Assembly: GCA_964019415.1 (NCBI GenBank)
Contig: OZ025883.1
Span: forward strand, 3,285,586-3,349,585
Direction: 5' to 3'
DNA length: 64,000 nucleotides
From: Ianthella basta
Taxonomy: Eukaryota > Porifera > Demospongiae > Verongiida > Ianthellidae
Positions 17,142 to 32,423 of this stretch are shown piece by piece. The notes beneath the pieces were generated by a model. That model had not been told where the DNA came from. It did no database searches and saw only the letters and a list, made by a program, of their open reading frames with translations. The translations under genes and the position numbers were made by a program. Position 1 is the first letter of the stretch. Every line of letters begins with the position of its first letter.

Positions 17142-17708
17142 TTAACTAACAGGCATCCGTCGGCGAAGTTCGTACATGGTGATCGCTGCAGCTACCGACA
17201 CGTTAAGGCTTTCAGCGAACCCACACATGGGTAGGGTAAAGGACACTTCCGCATCTTCCAACACTTCGTCTGACGGACCGGAATGCTCGTTGCCAAACAC
17301 TATCGCCATTTTGCGCTCCAATGGTAGCTCTGTTACACTGCGTGCAGCTGACGGCGAAGCGACAGCAATACAGTAACCGCGAGAGGCCAAGTCTCTCAAG
17401 CAGGCTTTAGTGGTGTCCCACTCTCGAATGCTCAGCCACTTCCGGGCACCAGCGTCCGACCTGCTATTTCTCACATTTTCCTTGCGTCTGTTGGTTTCTC
17501 TTTTGGCTGCACTCTCTTCGTTGTTACAAATTAAGTGCACGTCTTGAAATCCAAAGGCGTCTGCAGAGCGAAGAACAGCATTCTCGTTGCCTCTATCCAG
17601 CACATTCTCCAATACCACTACCACGTGTCTCGTTCGATTTCCTACAACCTTCCCTAGCGTCTCCCATCGACTGGCTGACACTAATCCCTTCAGCAAATCC
17701 CGCGACAT
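17142..17708 (-). CDS. SpoU/TrmH-family RNA 2'-O-ribose methyltransferase, intronless
   Basis: This is a 188-aa single-exon frame with its ATG at 17708; an upstream in-frame TTG is not needed. It shows the three SpoU motifs: motif 1, LENVLDRGNENAVLRSADAFGF (about residues 33-54, 22 residues overlapping the conserved Asn/Arg); motif 2, IVFGNEHSGPSDE; motif 3, LPMCGFAESLNVSVAAAI. These form the trefoil-knot pocket that binds S-adenosylmethionine and methylates ribose 2'-OH in tRNA or rRNA. It is close in size to bacterial TrmH (tRNA Gm18) and far shorter than animal TARBP1. It is the only complete intronless gene in a very intron-rich window and is comparatively CpG-rich, so a bacterial or organellar origin is possible. 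It faces the ROCO-like gene across 69 bp. The target RNA is unknown. Confidence 0.88.
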   Translation of the reverse strand: MSRDLLKGLVSASRWETLGKVVGNRTRHVVVVLENVLDRGNENAVLRSADAFGFQDVHLICNNEESAAKRETNRRKENVRNSRSDAGARKWLSIREWDTTKACLRDLASRGYCIAVASPSAARSVTELPLERKMAIVFGNEHSGPSDEVLEDAEVSFTLPMCGFAESLNVSVAAAITMYELRRRMPVS

Positions 17709-17777
17709 TTTCTCTGTGTTGCGCAACTTTATAAGTCACGTGAAAAGTCACGCTATTCCTAGTTCGTTGAGAGCAAC
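17709..17777. promoter_or_regulatory. 69-bp bidirectional promoter (TrmH-like / ROCO-like)
   Basis: Only 69 bp separate the two divergent start codons. A palindromic TCACGTGA (17736-17743), which fits a USF/MITF-type E-box, lies in the middle. The plus-strand start is embedded in AACATGGCGAG, a YY1-like context. No TATA box. Function is inferred from position and motifs. Confidence 0.6.
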
Positions 17778-20700
17778 ATGGCGAGTGCTCTGACTACGTT
17801 GTTTGCTGCCGTCAGGGAAGGAAACAGACCCGAGGTATCTAAAATCCTGAGCAACCCCGAAAACACACGGCTAGTCAACAATCCTGGAGACTACAATGAA
17901 ACACTTCTGCACTTTGCCGCGGAAGGCGGTGACAAGGAGATATGCAACCTTCTCCTCGTGGCTGGTGCTCGATGTGACACCGTCAACGCACAAAAGCACA
18001 CGCCGCTGCACAGAGGGGCTTTCAAAGGCAACCACGAGGCCCTCGGTGCCATGCTAAGTGAGCAAACCCATAGGCAGACCTTGTTCGTATGTTAACTGCA
18101 CTTCTGTGCATAACGTGCCATGTGGGTGGGTGTAGGCATCTGCATTCGTGATGCGTGATTAGTTAACTATGTTCAACATGCAATGTAACCTGTATAAGAA
18201 GGACATGGTTGATCATGTGTGTTCTGTACCGTCCTAGAACAAGTGGTACTAACTGATGACAGACCATGCAGGGAATTGCCCATGAAGTGTAGACAGAACG
18301 TAGTTTGTGAACTGACCATATCCATCATGTGTATTACATGATGGATGATAGTCTGGCAGTGGATGTACATATGTGTGTGTATCAGTAACCAATGCAAGTT
18401 TCACGTGTAATTTGGGGCTTGCTTAGGCTAACCCCAATAACTGAGCCGTTGTCTTTGTTCGAATGCTTGGATGAAACTATTCCATTCATTTTCACTATGT
18501 CTCAAACACAGCTCTGCTGAGCATTCCCTTAAGCAGTCCCCATGGGTGGCAGACCCTAATACCCCTAGTAGATGAATTTTACCAACTTCAATTGATATGA
18601 CTAAGTAATGTTTAGATCCCATTTGGTAGAGCATTAAGCTGTTTAGTCTTAGCACTCAAGGATGATGCAATGAAAGGCAAGATTGTGTAAAGATGCACAT
18701 GCTGAAAGCGCCTGTATTGGGACAGCACGACACCTACCAATCTACCTAACCGTAACCCTAACCCTAAGTTTTCTCTGCATCATTACACTGAAGTGAACGT
18801 GCATGTAATGACAGTAGGGTGTGGCATCAATAATCGGAAGTCATCAATAATCGGTAACCAGATCTCGACCGTTACAGCTTCTTTCGCCGCGATTCTTGGT
18901 GCACATGTAGAGGAGAAGTATTTAAGAGGATGCAGAACGTTTGGCGTGGATCCGCTTTTCCGAACACAAGATATTGCTTCAAATATGCTATTCCCGAAAT
19001 AACATAAATTCGGTTGGAAGTCATCTAAATTCGGTCGGCGACTTGTGCATCGCGAAGCTAGAAGATTTGTGCACTCTTACCATCTAAGCAGGTGAGTACA
19101 CTCAAGTCCTGGCCGCAGCAGAAGATTAGAGCGAATTGGTTTACCGGCGACGACGCACCACTGCCTTGAACAGGAAGCGCTGGGGTCATCAAAAATCGGC
19201 AACTTCCTAAACTATCCCATTGCAGGTTTTTTGAATTTGCGACTTGTCCGTGACTGCAGTTTATATCAATTGTCTTTCCCTTTCCTCTCTGAGTGCCTGG
19301 GAGCGAACTGTGTACCGAAACGTTTCAAACGAGCCTCAAGGTATGCCTTCAGCATGCAAGCCAGCCAGCCATTTGCATATTTGTGGTTAAGTCACACTCC
19401 ATAACAAAGCTTCACAAAGTATACACTATAAGGCTTCCAAAGTAAACATTCATTAAACAGCTGGCCATGACCAAACACAATAATGTCTACTGAGTGTGAA
19501 TGTGACTGTTCCCTTGTAGACATGGCTGGCTGTGCTCCACTTCGTGTTGCTGGTCAGTCTTCCTTGCAATCAAGGATTGCAAGATCCCATGACAAAGTAG
19601 CTGTACCCTTCACTACTACACGCCCTCAGACCTACCGAGGATACAGTATCCTTAGTATGGACAAGGCATGCGAAGCTGTGCTGACAGGCAAGCTAACTGT
19701 AGGAGCAGCTGCTGAAGAATACGGAGTCCCCAAATCTACCTTGTATGACAAGGTAACTGGGAAGGTCCCTGTCAAGGCCTAGAGTGGCAGGAGAGCATAT
19801 CTTATGGATGAAGATGAAGCCAAACTTGTAGAGTTTTTGGTCGATTGTGCTTCGGTAGGGTATGCCAAATCCCGACGAGATGTGCTCACAATTGCCCAGC
19901 AGATGGTCAATGCCCGCAATCCTGATTGTGATGTTGAACTGACAAAAGGATGGTGGGACAGATTCCGCCAACGGCATCCAGAGATCTCACTCAGACATGC
20001 TGAGCCCCTCTCTTATGCTCGAGTGATCGCCAATAATCCGCAAGTCATTGAAGCTTACTTCAATTTGCTTGAAAAGACCATCACAGAATATGGCTTGGCC
20101 CATTGTCCAGGGCAAATCTTTAATTGTGACGAAACAGGGATGCCCCTAACTCAAAAGCCACCTAGAGTGGTTACAAGTGTAGGCCAGAAGCATCCATACA
20201 CCATAACATCAGGTGACAAATCGCAGATCACTGTGATGGCCTGTGCCAGCGCGAGTGGGTACAGCATACCACCTATGGTCATTTTCGACCGGAAACACCT
20301 TCAGGTCGAAATGACCATGGGAGAAGTTCCGGGAACCTTCTATGGTTTATCTGACAGCGGATGGATGAATGCTGACTTGTTTCATGAGTGGTTCAGTAAC
20401 CACTTCCTGGTGCATGCACCATCCAGTCGGCCACTTCTCCTTCTCTTAGATGGCCACTCATCTCATTACAACCTAAATACCATATCTATGGCTGCAGAAG
20501 AGGATATCATCCTCTTCTGCTTACCTCCACACACCACTCATGTTCTCCAGCCCTTGGACAATGGCATATTCTCCTCATTAAAGGAGCACTGGATGCAAGG
20601 GTGCCATCAGTTTTATACCAGGAACCCTGGAAAGATTGTGACAAGGAGAAGCTTCATGAGCGTATTCCAACCAGCTTGGATACAGGGGATGGCCATGTCT

Positions 20701-23700
20701 AACGTCATTGGATGCTTCCGCGCCGCAGGAGTTTATCCGACTGACCGCAGAGTTGTGCTGTCACAACTTGGGCTGAAGGCTGCTGGAAGTCCTCCATCAC
20801 CCACACCCACACCATTCGTACCTTTCCACACACCATGGAGGGATGGATCTGCACACTACCCACCAGCTGATTCACCTCCAAGTACTCCATTCTCACAGGG
20901 TGAGATGGAGTACTTTCAGGCACGCCTGAAAGAATCTACAGATGCCAGATTTGCGCTGTGGCTACGAACATTCTACCCAGAAGCAACAATCCACGGTACA
21001 GCACAAGGTGTATTGGAAACCATCCTCCGTCGACCAATACCTCCAGCACAGCGCAAGCCTCCTCAGGTGCAGTGCAGTGCTCGTGTCCTCACTAGTCTGC
21101 ACTGCATGCAGGAGCTACAAAAGAAAGAGGAAAAGAAGAGAATGAAGGAGGAGGAAAAGGAGCGCAAAAGAATTGAACGTGAAGAACGCAAGAAAGCAAA
21201 GGAAGCAGCAAAGATGATAGGTACAGAAATAACAAAAAAAACATTCTTTTATTAGAAATCTGCAAACCTACCTGATTGTGTGCACAGTATGTATGCACTG
21301 GTATGCTTGTTCTCTGTAGGAAGACAGCCAAATAAGCAAGCCGCAGATCCAACACCAACTACACAACAATTCAGCACTGAGGAGGTACGCTTGTACACAA
21401 GGAGGAAGGAGGAAGGCTACGACCTACCCGATCCACGATACAGGCAGTGGTTGGCAAGTGGCACTGACACAGCAGGATCAACTTCCGTGGCTGCCTCTAG
21501 CAGCCAACCAGCAGCAAACGACGACTCGCCTTCATCTCCAGAACAGTCCGACTGTCAAACTGGGCAGTGTGGGCATCCGAAGGCAAGGAAATGGGTTCAG
21601 TGCGACCACTGTCCGCGGTGGTATCACCGTTTGTGCGCAGGGATAGCCTACAAATGCGCCAAGGAGAAGACGTACAAGTGTCCTGCTTGCACCCTGCAGT
21701 CTTGACCATATCTCCACAATGTACTGTAGTGACCACACATGCCAGCTTTTCTGACTGTCGCCATTTTGTAGTCTCATTCTGTTCCGATTTTTGATGACCC
21801 CAGCGCTTCCTGTTCAAGGCAGTGGTGCGTCGTCGCCGATAAACCAATTCGCCCTGATCTTCTGCTGCGGCCAGGACTTGAGTGTACTCACCTGCGTAGA
21901 TGGTAAGAGTGCACAAATCTTCTAGCTTCGCGATGCACAAGTCGCCGACCGAATTTAGATGACTTCCAACCGAATTTATGTTATTTCGGAAATAGCGTAT
22001 TTGAAGCAATATCTTGTGTTCGGAAAAGCGGATCCACGCCAAACGTTCTGCATCCTCTTAAATACTTCTCCTCTACATGTGCACCAAGAATCGCGGCGAA
22101 AGAAGCTGTAACGGTCGAGATCTGGTTACCGATTATTGATGACTTCCGATTATTGATGCCACGCCCTACTACTGACATACTAGAGAGGTTTAGCACAGCG
22201 TAAAACATAACGAAGTAAGCTTGTTATGTTTGGCGCAAAAAAGTCGAACACAGTAATTAACGTTTTTGATGTAACAAGGCTGGTTATTGCGTTTATTTTA
22301 TACATACATTGTTTGGCTGCGGAAAACTCGTCTTAGATCATTTGCGCTGCTCTCACCATGGATACAACAGCTGCTTCCACCCCTTCTCGTTCTCCGATCC
22401 CAGCAAGTTTGAGTCCATCCCCCATATTACCTTCAGAACACCAGCTGAAGCCGTCATGGGTTCACTTTCAGGCGGCAGATGCTGTAATACTGTTGCGGGA
22501 AGTTGTCGTAGTCGAGCACCCCTTCACACGAGGATCGGCCTGTTGGGAAACCATAGCTGGGACACTGCAAAAGGAATTTCCCGCGAAATTCAAAATCCAA
22601 GTGTTTCCCATGTCTCCCGTGTCTTTCCGCTTGTGCAGCAAGCTCCATCTTTGAAATTTGAATCGTCTGAATTGAGTACAGCCATCCACAATCCATCCTC
22701 TGTGCTGTTACTCGCCATTTTTGCCCACTCCCATTGCACTCTAAGGAAGAGCTTACGATTAACTCAGTGCCACGTTACACTATGTTCAAACGTTGTTGCA
22801 CTTAATTGAAGAACGTACGCATTTGCTCCATGTCACATGCGCTATTATGCTACGTTTGAATGTTGTGCTAAACCTCTCTACTAGTTAGAGTGCCTTGCTT
22901 ACACACCAATCAGTGAGGCTGTAAATGCTCGTAACCGAGTACTGTGAGTGAGTTAGTCAGTTTGCACGCCAGTCAGCGTATTTGAAATGAGCTTGCCACA
23001 GTTGTGATTCAGGCTGGGTTTGATTTGGACCTAAATAGCCCATGTACCCTATATAGTAGCTGGTCATAGTGAAGCAGCTACAGCAACAGGTTATAGCCTT
23101 GACTTTCTGCCGTCATAATATTCTTTTGCTTTTCTTCTTGTAAGACAGTATGTAAGTATTTACATCTGATCATGCAGCACTCATGTTTATGCTAATACAA
23201 ACAAACTTCACACTATTGTATAATTTATGGCCAGGGCACTGTGCTTGCAAAGTCTCTATCCCGTCAGAATGCTGCTTATGGCCCATTTCTGTAGTTGTAG
23301 CCTGCGTAGGAGAGACTTGGATATCTTATTATTATAAGTGTTAATGTTCAGGACTCTTCAGTTTTGGATGGATATCCACCAAATGCACTTAGAGGCAGGG
23401 CCGTAGCACCAAGATAAAAACCAGTCAGGCCATAGATGACATGACGCAAACTAGGGGGGGGGGGCATGCCCCCGAGGAAATTCTTGAAATTTAAATGTTC
23501 TGTGAGTACTTTTGGAGCAATTCTAGGCCCAGCAACACTTCAATGAGTATGATAAAATGTAATATAGACCAACAGGCACTTACAGCAGGAAAGGCGATCA
23601 AGTGCCATGAAACAGGTAATACCATGCATTGAAATACGTAAGTAGATTGCGCATTAAAAATCGAAATCTAGTGTTTCTTTGGCTGTCTCTCCAATGCTAG

Positions 23701-29700: not shown

Positions 29701-32423
29701 CCCCCTACAAGGATATCAATGAACATGGTGAGATTATCATTGAAGCCTACCAGCATGTAATGAAGAATGCACTCTGGCCTGACACACTTACAAGAATTGT
29801 GTTCTTGGGAGACAAAGGCACCGGTAAGCTGGCTTGCATGTGTGTTCATGTAACAGTGTGGAGTGTATATACATACTTGTTGTCTGAGCCCCTATGGCAT
29901 GTACCAAATTGTCTTGCTAGCAGAAGTAAGCATTGATATTTAAAAGTAAGCTAAGTGCAAGGATTCATTCCATATTCCTTTGTACTTGTAGGTAAAACAT
30001 CACTATCCAAAGTCATGTTTGGTGAAAGGTTTAATGCAGCAGAGAGGCCCACACAGGTTGCTGACATTGGCTCAAGAGTGGCTGAAATCAATTACAAACA
30101 AACAAGTAGCTGGAAATTCTCACGTACCATTGAAAGCGATGCTGCAAACCGTCAGAAGTCTTTTGAAGACCATGTCTCCAGTCATATCTTTTTATACATG
30201 CACAAAAAGCGCCAGCAGAGGAAGCAGGGCTATGGACCTGACTCAGAGACAAAGGGTGAGGGAGGTAACCTGACTGACTCCCCTCCCAACACCGGTTCCC
30301 ACGGTGGAACACCCACCTCACCACTTTCAGACTACGTCAAAATTGATCTAGCCCCTAGCCCAGCATCTCCCCTCACATTTGAGGGTGGCAGTCCCAGAGT
30401 GCAACCTGAATACTTCATTTCTGACATGTCAACAGGAACTTTCAGTGACCTGTTGACACATGTCATTCCCCAAAGCCAGCTTGAAAACATCCTCTGCTGG
30501 TGGCCAAAGCGGAAGAAGCTTGCGGAGCTGCCAATGTTGAATCATGCACTTAGTGATGGCCCACTTGGACACACCCTGTCTGTGCAGAAGAGAAGCTGCC
30601 TCATGTGTGTGTCGGAGTTCTGTGGTGAGCCCATTTTGATCAACCTCTTTCCACTGCTCTTTGCACCAGTGTGTGCCTATTTGATCACCTATGATGTGTC
30701 AGCAGAAGAAGCTGCTGCTGCTTGGTGTTCAGCTGGCCTGCGGACCGTTGATGCTACTGCTCTGACAAAGGAGGAGGTGCTGGTGGAGTGGTTGTGCTCT
30801 TGCATGGCCAGTGCAGGAACACATGACCAGCTACAGTTGCCCATTATTCTCCCATCTGTTCACCCTCGCCTGCCAGTCATGCTGGTTTTACTGACCAAAA
30901 CAGACAAGGAGTACAGTCATGATATGGAGGTTCAACTGGATAAGGTTCTGAGGGAGAATATTCCAAGTGTTAGACTACACCGGAAGAGTGAGCCTCAGAC
31001 TCCTGGCCACGTTCTTTACTCAACCAGCAGCCGCAAAGGGGAACAGGAGCGTAAGTATTTACTTCGCGATGTAGAGACAATAGCATGTCGCAGTGTATAC
31101 AGCTTTGCTCAGCACATCCCACACTCTTGGAGCAAGATGTACAACTACCTAATCAACACGCATCAGAGCAGAAAGAAGGCATTCATCTTTGTGGAGCACC
31201 TCCACAAATTGATGTGTCAATTGCCCATTGCAGTCGATAGAACCACTCTGGAAGTGGCCCTCAGGTACTTCCATGGTTTGGGCTGTATTTGCTTTTTTCA
31301 TCGCCACCCTCAGCTGCGCTGTATAGTATTCCTACAGCCCCAGATACTGCTGGATGCAATGGCCTCGATTCTGCTGCAGCCCGATATGTGGGAATTTGAG
31401 TCAAGTCGGCAACTTTACCTCACTTCTTTACAGCAGGGGATCGTAGAACGCCGACTGCTGTATGACATCTATGACACTACTAGCCACTCGCTGGACTTCA
31501 AGCTAGTCCTCTATGTCCTGGACGCCATGAATATCCTGTGCAAACACCCACTACTGGATACAAGGAACCCACAGTTGGTGGTCCCATGCCTTGTGAAGGC
31601 CACAGGAAAGGGTTTCTTCCCTCGCCCTGCAACAGACTCCAGCCATGGCATGGAAGCTGAGTGGCTTGTCTTTGAAGCGCATGAAATGCAATTTCCATGG
31701 GCAGCATACAACCAGTTGGTGACATGCTGCTGCCGCTCTGCTCTGCACTACAAACCCCAACTGTGGCAAAGAATGGCTCACATTCAGCTGACCAATACTT
31801 GCCACCTGGTCATGGCTCATGAAGGCAAAAGGATCACCTTTCGAGTTGAGAGCAATTCCAATAGTCCCTGTGATGTGTGCATCCTCCACACTGTGGACAA
31901 TGAGTCACAGGCTTCCACTCCATCTTCAAATGCCACTTCATCCAGTGTCACTTTGTGTGGCACACCACAGATAACCGCACACTCTGGCGGAGAGCAGGAC
32001 CTCTCTGACATATGCACTCCCCAGAGCTCTTTCCTGGTTGCAAATAGCAAGGGCATCAGATTTATTGAATGGGCTAAAACAATCAAAACAGACACGCCAA
32101 AGGCAGACCTACCTGGGATTCTAGATGACCTGCTTAAGGCTCGTGAACCCAACGTACAAAGTGTGAGACCCTTGGTGTTCCCAGTGAATGTAGATGACCT
32201 GTCTGTGCTGTGCCCCCCCACTTTGGACTTCCTGCAGAGCCAGCTGGACTGCATTAGGCAGTGCTGGTTCCCTGGCTTGCAGTACTACTTGAGGCCCAAG
32301 CACTGGAGGCCACTTCAAGGTGATGAGCAGGGACCAATCTTGGACAGACAGTGGATGTTGGAAAACCAGAGGCTGCCACACACACCCCAGTGCCTCAGGC
32401 TTTGGTGGAAGGCAGAACAGTGA
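17778..32423 (+). CDS. Ankyrin-Roc-COR protein (ROCO-type GTPase, no kinase)
   Basis: Exons: 17778-18057, 25366-25587, 29695-29823 and 29992-32423, all phase 1 junctions; 1020 aa. Ankyrin repeats fill residues about 20-170 (ETLLHFAAEGG, HTPLHRGAF, GWTALHYAAKFG). A Roc GTPase follows: the P-loop GDKGTGKTS straddles an intron (K212), and the NKxD-type base motif appears as TKTD (512-515). The COR/winged-helix part follows at about 590-720 (GLGCICFFH, IVFLQPQILLDAM). No kinase, LRR or WD domain is present. About 200 residues between P-loop and G3 include a Ser/Pro/Gly-rich insert, and the expected DxxG is replaced by EFCG (419-422). ROCO proteins usually dimerise through COR and act as switches; with Glu in G3, nucleotide hydrolysis may be weak. 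Introns 1 and 2 hold 7.3 kb and 4.1 kb of mostly transposon DNA. AATAAA at about 32658 may be the poly(A) signal. Confidence 0.85.
18747..18771 (-). repeat. Short interstitial telomere-like repeat
   Basis: About two and a half units of CCCTAA (TTAGGG on the other strand), one degenerate, lie 45 bp outside the left end of the pogo-like transposon. Too short to be a relic telomere with confidence. Confidence 0.45.
18817..19199 (+). repeat. Left terminal inverted repeat of the pogo-like element
   Basis: Begins GGGTGTGGCATC directly after TA and ends CATCAAAAATCGG. It is the near-exact reverse complement of 21784-22166. Confidence 0.92.
19483..21705 (+). pseudogene. DDE_1 transposase with PHD finger, interrupted by one in-frame stop
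   Basis: The first segment (19483-19782) holds a psq/CENP-B-like helix-turn-helix (VGAAAEEYGVPKSTLYDKV). A TAG at 19780-19782 then interrupts the frame, which continues without shift through 21220. The second segment has a CENP-B-type HTH (GWWDRFRQRHPEIS) and the DDE_1 core with acidic residues in FNCDETG, LLLDGHSSH and QPLDNG (a DDD triad). An intron at 21221-21319 (phase 1, GTACAG...CTGTAG) joins a second exon ending at 21705 that encodes a PHD-like finger (WVQCDHCPRWYHRLC ... YKCPAC). DDE_1 transposases cut and rejoin element ends at TA. Either the stop inactivates this copy, or translation starts downstream at 19804 without the first HTH. Confidence 0.85.
21784..22166 (-). repeat. Right terminal inverted repeat of the pogo-like element
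   Basis: Inverted partner of 18817-19199, 383 bp, ending GCCACGCCC before TA. Confidence 0.92.
22183..22878 (+). mobile_element. Short DNA transposon carrying a Myb/SANT-like fragment
   Basis: GAGAGGTTTAGCACA at the left and TGTGCTAAACCTCTC at the right form 15-bp inverted ends flanked by TA (ACT is an alternative flank), giving a 696-bp element that abuts the pogo-like element. Inside, ATG at 22358 opens a 98-aa frame whose middle (AVILLREVVVVEHPFTRGSACWE, given here only in part as FTRGSACWETIA) resembles a Myb/SANT-like DNA-binding domain of the kind encoded by Harbinger and related elements. It breaks off after that region, so the element is probably a deletion derivative. Confidence 0.5.
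23396..24581. mobile_element. Non-autonomous hAT-like element
   Basis: The ends CAGGGCCGTAGCACC and GGTGCTACGGCCCTG are perfect inverted partners, flanked by AGAGG at 23391-23395 and 24582-24586. A CAGGG start suits hAT elements; five-base duplications are known for the hAT5 group. The 1186 bp encode nothing recognisable and contain the nested 161-bp MITE at 24068 and a GGTCCGGCCATGGCCGGACC palindrome near the right end. Confidence 0.7.
24068..24228 (+). mobile_element. 161-bp palindromic MITE, copy 1
   Basis: The ends CAGCGGATTTATGCAACC and GGTTGCATAAATCCACTG are flanked by TA. The arms pair along nearly the whole length (GCAACAGTTCCCATACC, CCTAGGTAA). The same 161-bp element occurs at 44833-44993 with its interior in the opposite orientation. 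CAG ends and TA flanks suggest mobilisation by a pogo/Tc1-mariner transposase, though not the one at 18817, whose ends differ. Confidence 0.85.
26100..26480 (-). pseudogene. Ty3/gypsy reverse transcriptase fragment
   Basis: Read on the minus strand, a frame with at least one stop shows the start of a Ty3/gypsy RT: VVVPKPDGKVCSCVDLTKLN, then a stop, then HILPSIEQSLAQLGG. It is truncated after this block, with no RNase H or integrase seen. It lies in intron 2 of the ROCO-like gene, antisense to the gene. Confidence 0.75.
26943..27040 (-). other. Probable primer-binding site and LTR edge of a Ty3/gypsy element
   Basis: On the minus strand, GTGACATTACA is followed by TGGTGTTAGAAGTGGGAT, the usual arrangement of an LTR ending in CA followed by a primer-binding site. 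It lies about 460 bp upstream of the RT fragment on the same strand. The far end of the LTR was not found, so its length is unknown. Confidence 0.4.
27040..27400 (-). pseudogene. Second LINE-like C-terminal fragment
   Basis: The minus-strand phrases NFWGDKQQCAFLDVRVFNP and, in a shifted frame, EVEHGSFTP match the block at 14330-14745. Stops and shifts show decay. It is interleaved with the gypsy debris in the same intron. Confidence 0.5.
29109..29345 (-). pseudogene. Retroelement gag fragment with CCHC zinc knuckle
   Basis: The minus-strand frame contains CYLCKEEGHQARGC (29238-29279), an exact CX2CX4HX4C knuckle typical of retrotransposon nucleocapsid, followed by acidic residues. It shares strand with the RT fragment at 26100 and could be the 5' part of the same or a related element. 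Not intact. Confidence 0.65.

Follow-up and report, generated by a model that had tools for sequence, protein, structure and literature searches.

A psq-type pogo transposon family of the sponge Ianthella basta with a predicted PHD finger in its transposase

A DNA transposon spans positions 18817-22166 of a 64,000-nucleotide stretch of the Ianthella basta genome (contig OZ025883.1, positions 3,285,586 to 3,349,585; hereafter the window), and the locus raises the question of whether the PHD finger encoded close to its right end is part of the transposase and, if so, what such a finger would do for a cut-and-paste element. An earlier sequence-only reading of the window had proposed a young element of pogo/Tigger kind with long inverted repeats, whose DDE_1 transposase would carry a PHD finger guiding the choice of target. 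We put at roughly 0.6 the probability of our best explanation of the whole, namely that the element belongs to a recently active pogo family of psq type with a DD35D catalytic triad, whose transposase bears a finger that would bind histone H3 methylated at lysine 4 (H3K4). The anatomy and the membership of the element are close to certain. Its left end reads GGGTGTGGCATC, the right end is the near-complement of the left, and its boundaries are as follows.

18815-18816, no strand: left copy of the TA target site, read from the sequence
18817-19199, plus strand: left terminal inverted repeat (TIR), 383 bp
21784-22166, minus strand: right TIR, 383 bp, from comparison of the arms
22167-22168, no strand: right copy of the TA target site, from the alignment of copies

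A search of the host genome (209 Mb) with the element returned 87 match rows, and we aligned a set of eight copies (L001-L007 and L009), omitting L008 (86%), a copy split in two on C9, and older relatives. TA stands on both sides of the element in all eight, and the flanking DNA differs between copies. The window copy, L002, L003, and L004 are full-length, and L005, L006, L007, and L009 have one 808-base deletion in common (window 20521-21328 missing). Because full-length and deleted copies occupy different genomic places, a chance palindrome is excluded, and because the one deletion recurs at separate TA-flanked sites, the defective copies were mobilised by enzyme made elsewhere. Identity is 99.46% between the window copy and L002, and 99.64-99.70% among three of the deletion copies. 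This high identity, together with the mobilised defective copies, indicates that the family moved recently, and we conclude that, judged from these comparisons, it is a recently active one. The two arms of the window copy match at 376 of 383 positions (7 mismatches), as near to identical as the sequence-only reading had held. Its claim of youth stands on the identity between the window copy and L002, which is the better evidence; it does not stand on the arms, since arm identity is no dating tool for cut-and-paste elements, and we rejected dating by it. In an older family copy (L010 1963-2999 and L011 8292-9374, G000:C9:7157462-7174673), an insert of some 15.1 kb separates two parts that overlap by 3 bases where the element is interrupted (element positions 2147-2149); this overlap could be the 3-bp target duplicate left by a different large mobile element. 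A short run of telomere-like TAACCC repeats lies immediately left of the window copy (18753-18767).

The transposase gene, as predicted from the window copy and its relatives, has the following parts, all on the plus strand.

19341-19519: proposed intron of the 5' untranslated region, GT...AG, from the sequence and the starts of relatives
19522-21220: transposase exon with the likely start codon at 19522; broken by TAG in the window copy, open in L002
19657-19758: HTH_psq domain (Pfam, 8.2e-10 in the window open reading frame (ORF), 1.5e-8 in the L002 protein)
19780-19782: nonsense codon TAG, private to the window copy
19816-19995: HTH_Tnp_Tc5-like domain (E = 0.0036, 17.7 bits, under the Pfam cut-off of 22.2)
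20128-20559: catalytic triad D203 (20128-30), D310 (20449-51), and D346 (20557-59), DD35D, from the DDE_1 match
21221-21319: predicted GT-AG intron, phase 1, with an in-frame stop at 21253-21255 if unspliced
21320-21705: last exon, with a second copy of an RYRQWL-type motif, then the PHD finger and the stop, from the reading frame
21553-21690: PHD finger, C-x4-C-x10-C-x2-C-x4-H-x2-C-x14-C-x2-C with W658 and W667 (L002 numbering), from alignment, pattern, and model

The DDE_1 match is strong both in window ORF 19804-21255 (E = 2e-25) and in the L002 protein (4.2e-25). Position 19780 is T in one of the eight aligned copies and A in the other seven, where the codon is AAG in six and AAA in one (L005), and because of this private stop no full protein can come from the window copy. 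The ATG at 19804 is likewise private, reading ACG in the other seven, and the separate main ORF of the window copy is due to the private stop and the private ATG together. We rejected a gene start at 19804 for this reason and because the frame begins upstream with HTH_psq; the gene model of the sequence-only reading had missed both that domain and the stop. In L002 the frame is open from psq to PHD with a single splice, giving 707 codons from the first ATG and 694 from 19522, the latter a 694-residue protein of psq-Tc5-DD35D-PHD architecture. L003 is damaged by frameshifts and an altered splice donor, and L004 by a frameshift and the loss of a finger cysteine. Since the position equivalent to 19522, right after a plausible acceptor, is occupied by MAG or MAS in the L017, L060, and L062 proteins, the 5' intron and the 694-residue protein are likely, and translation would most likely start at ATG 19522. 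As for the intron before the last exon, the donor GT stands at the equivalent place, past a lysine/glutamate-rich stretch, in the window family, L017, and L042; the predicted splicing is supported by the same-place intron in L017 and L042 and by intronless relatives. A duplicated motif lies astride this intron (window 20900-21460; FSQGEMEYF...RFALWL and FSTEEVRLY...RYRQWL), and the copies flanking the intron suggest that the last exon arose along with a duplication.

In the window copy the finger and the catalytic part differ in both exon and frame, as they would if the finger were an exon of the host or a neighbouring gene without relation to the transposase. We rejected this reading, which we regard as very improbable, on the placement of the finger within the TIRs, on frames that it shares with the catalytic part, and on a strand-biased pairing with DDE_1. 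First, the finger exon lies inside the TIRs in all eight aligned copies. The sequence-only reading had taken copies lacking this exon as a sign that the finger is foreign; all eight keep it, some in decayed form (L004-L007 and L009; L005 with a 14-base deletion in it). Second, divergent relatives, 32-60% identical within the finger, also possess it, and in seven of these it shares a single open frame with the catalytic part: in L059, L061, and L028 according to Pfam (PHD scores of 15.2, 24.5, and 16.4 bits against a cut-off of 24), and in L069, L071, L072, and L074 as read by eye. In the window family, L014, L017, L042/L062, L060, and L073/L075, the finger is on a subsequent stretch, probably a second exon. 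Third, a genome search with the last exon gave 87 matches, of which the 61 reaching into the finger were used; the other 26, which lie in the front part of the exon and include no more than the beginning of the finger, were set aside. At least 35 of the 61, six of them the window family's own copies, have DDE_1 on their own strand no more than 7 kb upstream; among the DDE_1 matches listed (150 scored of 306 candidates, so that pairing counts are lower bounds), none of the 61 has DDE_1 on the opposite strand and 26 have no same-strand partner within 7 kb. Because divergent relatives carry the finger, seven in one open frame with DDE_1, and because pairing is 35 of 61 on the same strand against 0 of 61 on the other, we conclude from these sequences that the finger is a conserved part of the predicted transposase. 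The earlier description of a DDE_1 transposase with a PHD-encoding last exon thus holds, with a Pfam match to DDE_1, one to PHD (PF00628) that lies about the cut-off, and relatives that share the frame.

The deep nodes of the tree, which bear on the age of the finger, are weak (ultrafast bootstrap (UFBoot) 41-76). The tree was made without L067. The relatives L016 and L024, which match the 707-residue query only up to residues 319 and 348, were not counted. One psq-side relative in the tree, L068, shows no finger either in its own frame or within the downstream stretch examined, and none was seen by eye in the longest frame, to the exclusion of further exons, of four CENP-B/Tigger-like loci (L064-L067). 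Downstream of L068, beside this psq-type pogo gene in which no finger was seen, lies an ORF on the minus strand (L070 1-576) with a motif that suggests an Ulp1-type cysteine protease.

If the finger belongs to the transposase, what would it bind? Pfam recognises PHD (PF00628) in the exon ORF 21280-21705 with E = 3.5e-5 and 24.2 bits, just above the cut-off of 24, and in the whole spliced L002 protein with 21.3 bits, below it. The C4-H-C3 zinc ligands, which the sequence-only reading had proposed to check, are present in the window copy and in L002, and an alignment of 11 fingers shows no variation in the eight ligand columns or in two tryptophans, its rows being partly non-independent (the window copy, L005, and L008 are close to one another, as are L057 and L059); for the finger of L061, a C-x2-C opening is an alternative reading. 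A pattern asking for the eight ligands and requiring no tryptophan found 18 distinct fingers among the relatives' loci, with the first tryptophan in all 18 and both in 17. L069, unlisted by this pattern owing to a longer first loop, has both tryptophans by eye. The best sequence matches among solved structures are KDM5B (E = 5.2e-8), presumably with its third PHD finger, then ALFIN-LIKE 1, the structure of which is titled as solved bound to H3 trimethylated at lysine 4 (H3K4me3), and then KDM5A (4.2e-6). The tryptophans of the finger align with those of WVQC and W-F-H (W-x-H) in KDM5A, which we take to be the residues forming its cage. For the third finger of KDM5A, binding of H3K4me3 at 0.9 uM by a cage of two aromatic residues is described in PMC7335091. 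An AlphaFold model of the finger has a predicted local distance difference test (pLDDT) score of 82.3, and a PDB structure search with it returned PHD fingers first, several of them solved with H3K4me3, at modest scores; 2ma5 (KDM5B) ranked 44 in Foldseek, and the third-finger entries of KDM5A and KDM5B are absent among the best 50 VIA rows.

Selection on the finger was judged from codon-position counts only, dS not being finite for most between-family pairs. Between L002 and L014 the finger differs by 15, 7, and 25 changes at codon positions 1, 2, and 3, and changes between families fall mostly at the third; between the deletion copy L005 and L002 the counts are 4, 3, and 1. The third-position excess between families and the decay in deletion copies therefore form the pattern expected from selection on a working finger.

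On balance we somewhat favour a finger that would read H3K4 methylation, going by ligands, tryptophans, and matches. Several observations weigh against this: the second tryptophan is displaced in L011, a copy already split by the insert; a zinc cysteine is lost in L004, L006, L007, and L009 (neither these nor L011 are in the 11-finger alignment); and the fold match is moderate. The last of these would suit a zinc module that reads no histone and is structural, dimerising, or nucleic acid-binding, and zinc fingers of other transposases often serve in DNA binding or assembly. We hold such a module to be distinctly less probable than a histone reader: the tryptophans placed as in KDM5A are kept in 17 of 18 fingers, the exception being the split copy L011, and H3K4me3 is bound by ALFIN-LIKE 1 and KDM5A, which come second and third among the solved matches.

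At the other end of the predicted enzyme, the N-terminal helix-turn-helix (HTH) domains have a set of candidate sites in the TIRs. In each arm a motif built as CATC, A/T-rich, TCGG recurs five times (two outer, two middle, and one inner), and its copies in the left arm, on the plus strand, are as follows.

18823-18838: subterminal motif copy 1 (GGCATCAATAATCGGA), better conserved in distant relatives than the remaining TIR
18840-18855: subterminal motif copy 2, conserved in relatives
19001-19014: subterminal motif copy 3, conserved in relatives
19020-19035: subterminal motif copy 4, conserved in relatives
19185-19199: subterminal motif copy 5, at the TIR's inner end, conserved in relatives

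In 14 arm alignments from 12 older relatives (at most 85% identity), motif positions are 86% conserved against 67% elsewhere in the TIR. In a first circular shift test, with a pattern that catches three of the five copies, 20 of 383 shifts equalled or exceeded the observed value; in a second, done after seeing the result of the first and with all five copies written out, only 1 of 383 did, the unshifted placement itself. The five motifs are thus probable binding sites for the psq and Tc5 domains, as far as conservation can tell.

From what is read in the sequence (the anatomy, the TA flanks, the mobilised copies, and the conserved finger), we infer a mechanism of motif binding, splicing, histone binding, and guidance. 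The N-terminal HTH domains would bind the repeated motifs inside the long TIRs, the DDE core would cut, and insertion would take place at TA. Splicing in of the last exon would add the C-terminal finger, which would bind the H3 tail methylated at lysine 4, like the fingers of KDM5A (its third) and RAG2, and so tie the enzyme to open, promoter-near chromatin, either for target choice or as an activity switch. That the finger guides insertion we propose only tentatively. The ATG (17778) of an ankyrin gene stands about 1.04 kb upstream of the window copy, whose position would fit promoter-near insertion, as a single case; L002 adjoins an ORF with an AAA_11 domain, and Pfam gave no match in an ORF of an L007 flank or in the ORF at 22358. 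The role of the RAG2 finger is one of activating or restraining catalysis, and a finger that reads H3K4 methylation could act likewise here, with no part in target choice. RAG2-like transposon proteins with a PHD finger, of which the sea urchin one binds H3K4me2 according to PMC7204232, speak for such control of catalysis, which fits the observations as well as guidance does and which we consider less likely than not. Of similarly low probability, and extending our proposal of an H3K4-methyl reader, is a branch of psq-type pogo elements in which an old, conserved reader would steer or license integration to active chromatin, with splicing versus retention of the last intron toggling between a reading and a non-reading enzyme.

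Two further features of the neighbourhood are noted. The ankyrin-repeat gene and a SpoU methylase gene stand head to head with starts about 70 bp apart (window 17142-17778), and the gap between them is likely a two-way promoter. A long ORF with a COR-A domain, of a Roco-type protein, lies at window 29955-32423.

Where does the element belong? Features of the pogo superfamily are a TA (or TAA/TAAA) target copy, a DDE_1 domain with a DDxD/E triad, and an N-terminal HTH (psq, CENP-B, Tc5, Brk, or ABP1); the TA flanks, the DD35D triad, and HTH_psq, with HTH_Tnp_Tc5 below cut-off, agree with these, and the pogo-like assignment is borne out. The likeness to Tigger is not. According to Gao et al. (2020; PMC7386202), Tigger elements have CENP-B_N with HTH_Tnp_Tc5, or HTH_Tnp_Tc5 alone, and CENP-B_N is found in Tigger and pogoR; we rejected the label, since the L002 protein has HTH_psq and no match to CENP-B_N at E <= 0.1. 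Passer, with BrkDBD and HTH_Tnp_Tc5, or HTH_Tnp_Tc5 alone, and DD35D (PMC7386202), fits in its triad, but HTH_psq is present here and BrkDBD has no match at E <= 0.1. The same paper places HTH_psq with HTH_Tnp_Tc5 in Fot/Fot-like elements and DD35D in Fot/Fot-like and Passer. We conclude that, by its domains, the element is of the pogo superfamily and psq-type, not Tigger.

Its nearest likeness is to Fot/Fot-like elements, which share HTH_psq and/or HTH_Tnp_Tc5 (weak here), DDE_1, DD35D, and, in some members, TA target copies (PMC7386202), a likeness by domains and not by placement in a tree. Most of them differ in TIRs of 40-60 bp (about 100 bp in FotC), "most" being the paper's word and length not strictly defining. 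The 383-bp TIRs, which the sequence-only reading had called unusually long, are so beside these, but not beside the 392-856 bp on record for unclassified insect pogo elements with type 4 TIRs, reported in PMC7386202 from insects only. The word PHD does not occur in the main text of that paper, supplements lying outside this count. Among the titles and opening abstracts listed by searches of the open-licence literature, with Repbase and subscription papers outside, we found no pogo or Tigger element with a PHD finger; PMC10799480 describes PHD domains in a host fusion protein, with no pogo link in what it reports there.

If the finger reads H3K4 methylation, the transposase would be a single-protein cut-and-paste enzyme with its own chromatin reader, and so a compact instance of chromatin-guided DNA transposition that is open to test and can be set beside RAG2 and chromodomain retroelements. 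It could also bear on the origin of CENPB and POGZ, domesticated chromatin proteins derived from pogo transposases (PMC7386202). What is already known is that PHD fingers occur in other cut-and-paste elements (RAG2-like, Rehavkus, and Ginger) and that some insect pogo elements have very long TIRs. The fingers of KDM5A and KDM5B resemble that of the element in the C-x4-C opening and the tryptophans of WVQC and W-x-H, but they belong to host histone demethylases, and their third and fourth zinc cysteines stand one residue further apart. RAG1L-RAG2L transposons also encode a PHD finger, with Cx4-7C spacing in invertebrates (PMC7204232), but their catalytic core is of Transib type and the finger is on a separate Kelch protein. 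Rehavkus combines a transposase bearing a PHD finger with TIRs of 26-400 bp (PMC6446971) and differs in its Mutator-like core and 9-bp target copies. Ginger1-9_HM has a transposase with a C-terminal PHD finger (PMC2836005), as the element does, but attached to a Gypsy-integrase-type core with an Ulp1 domain.

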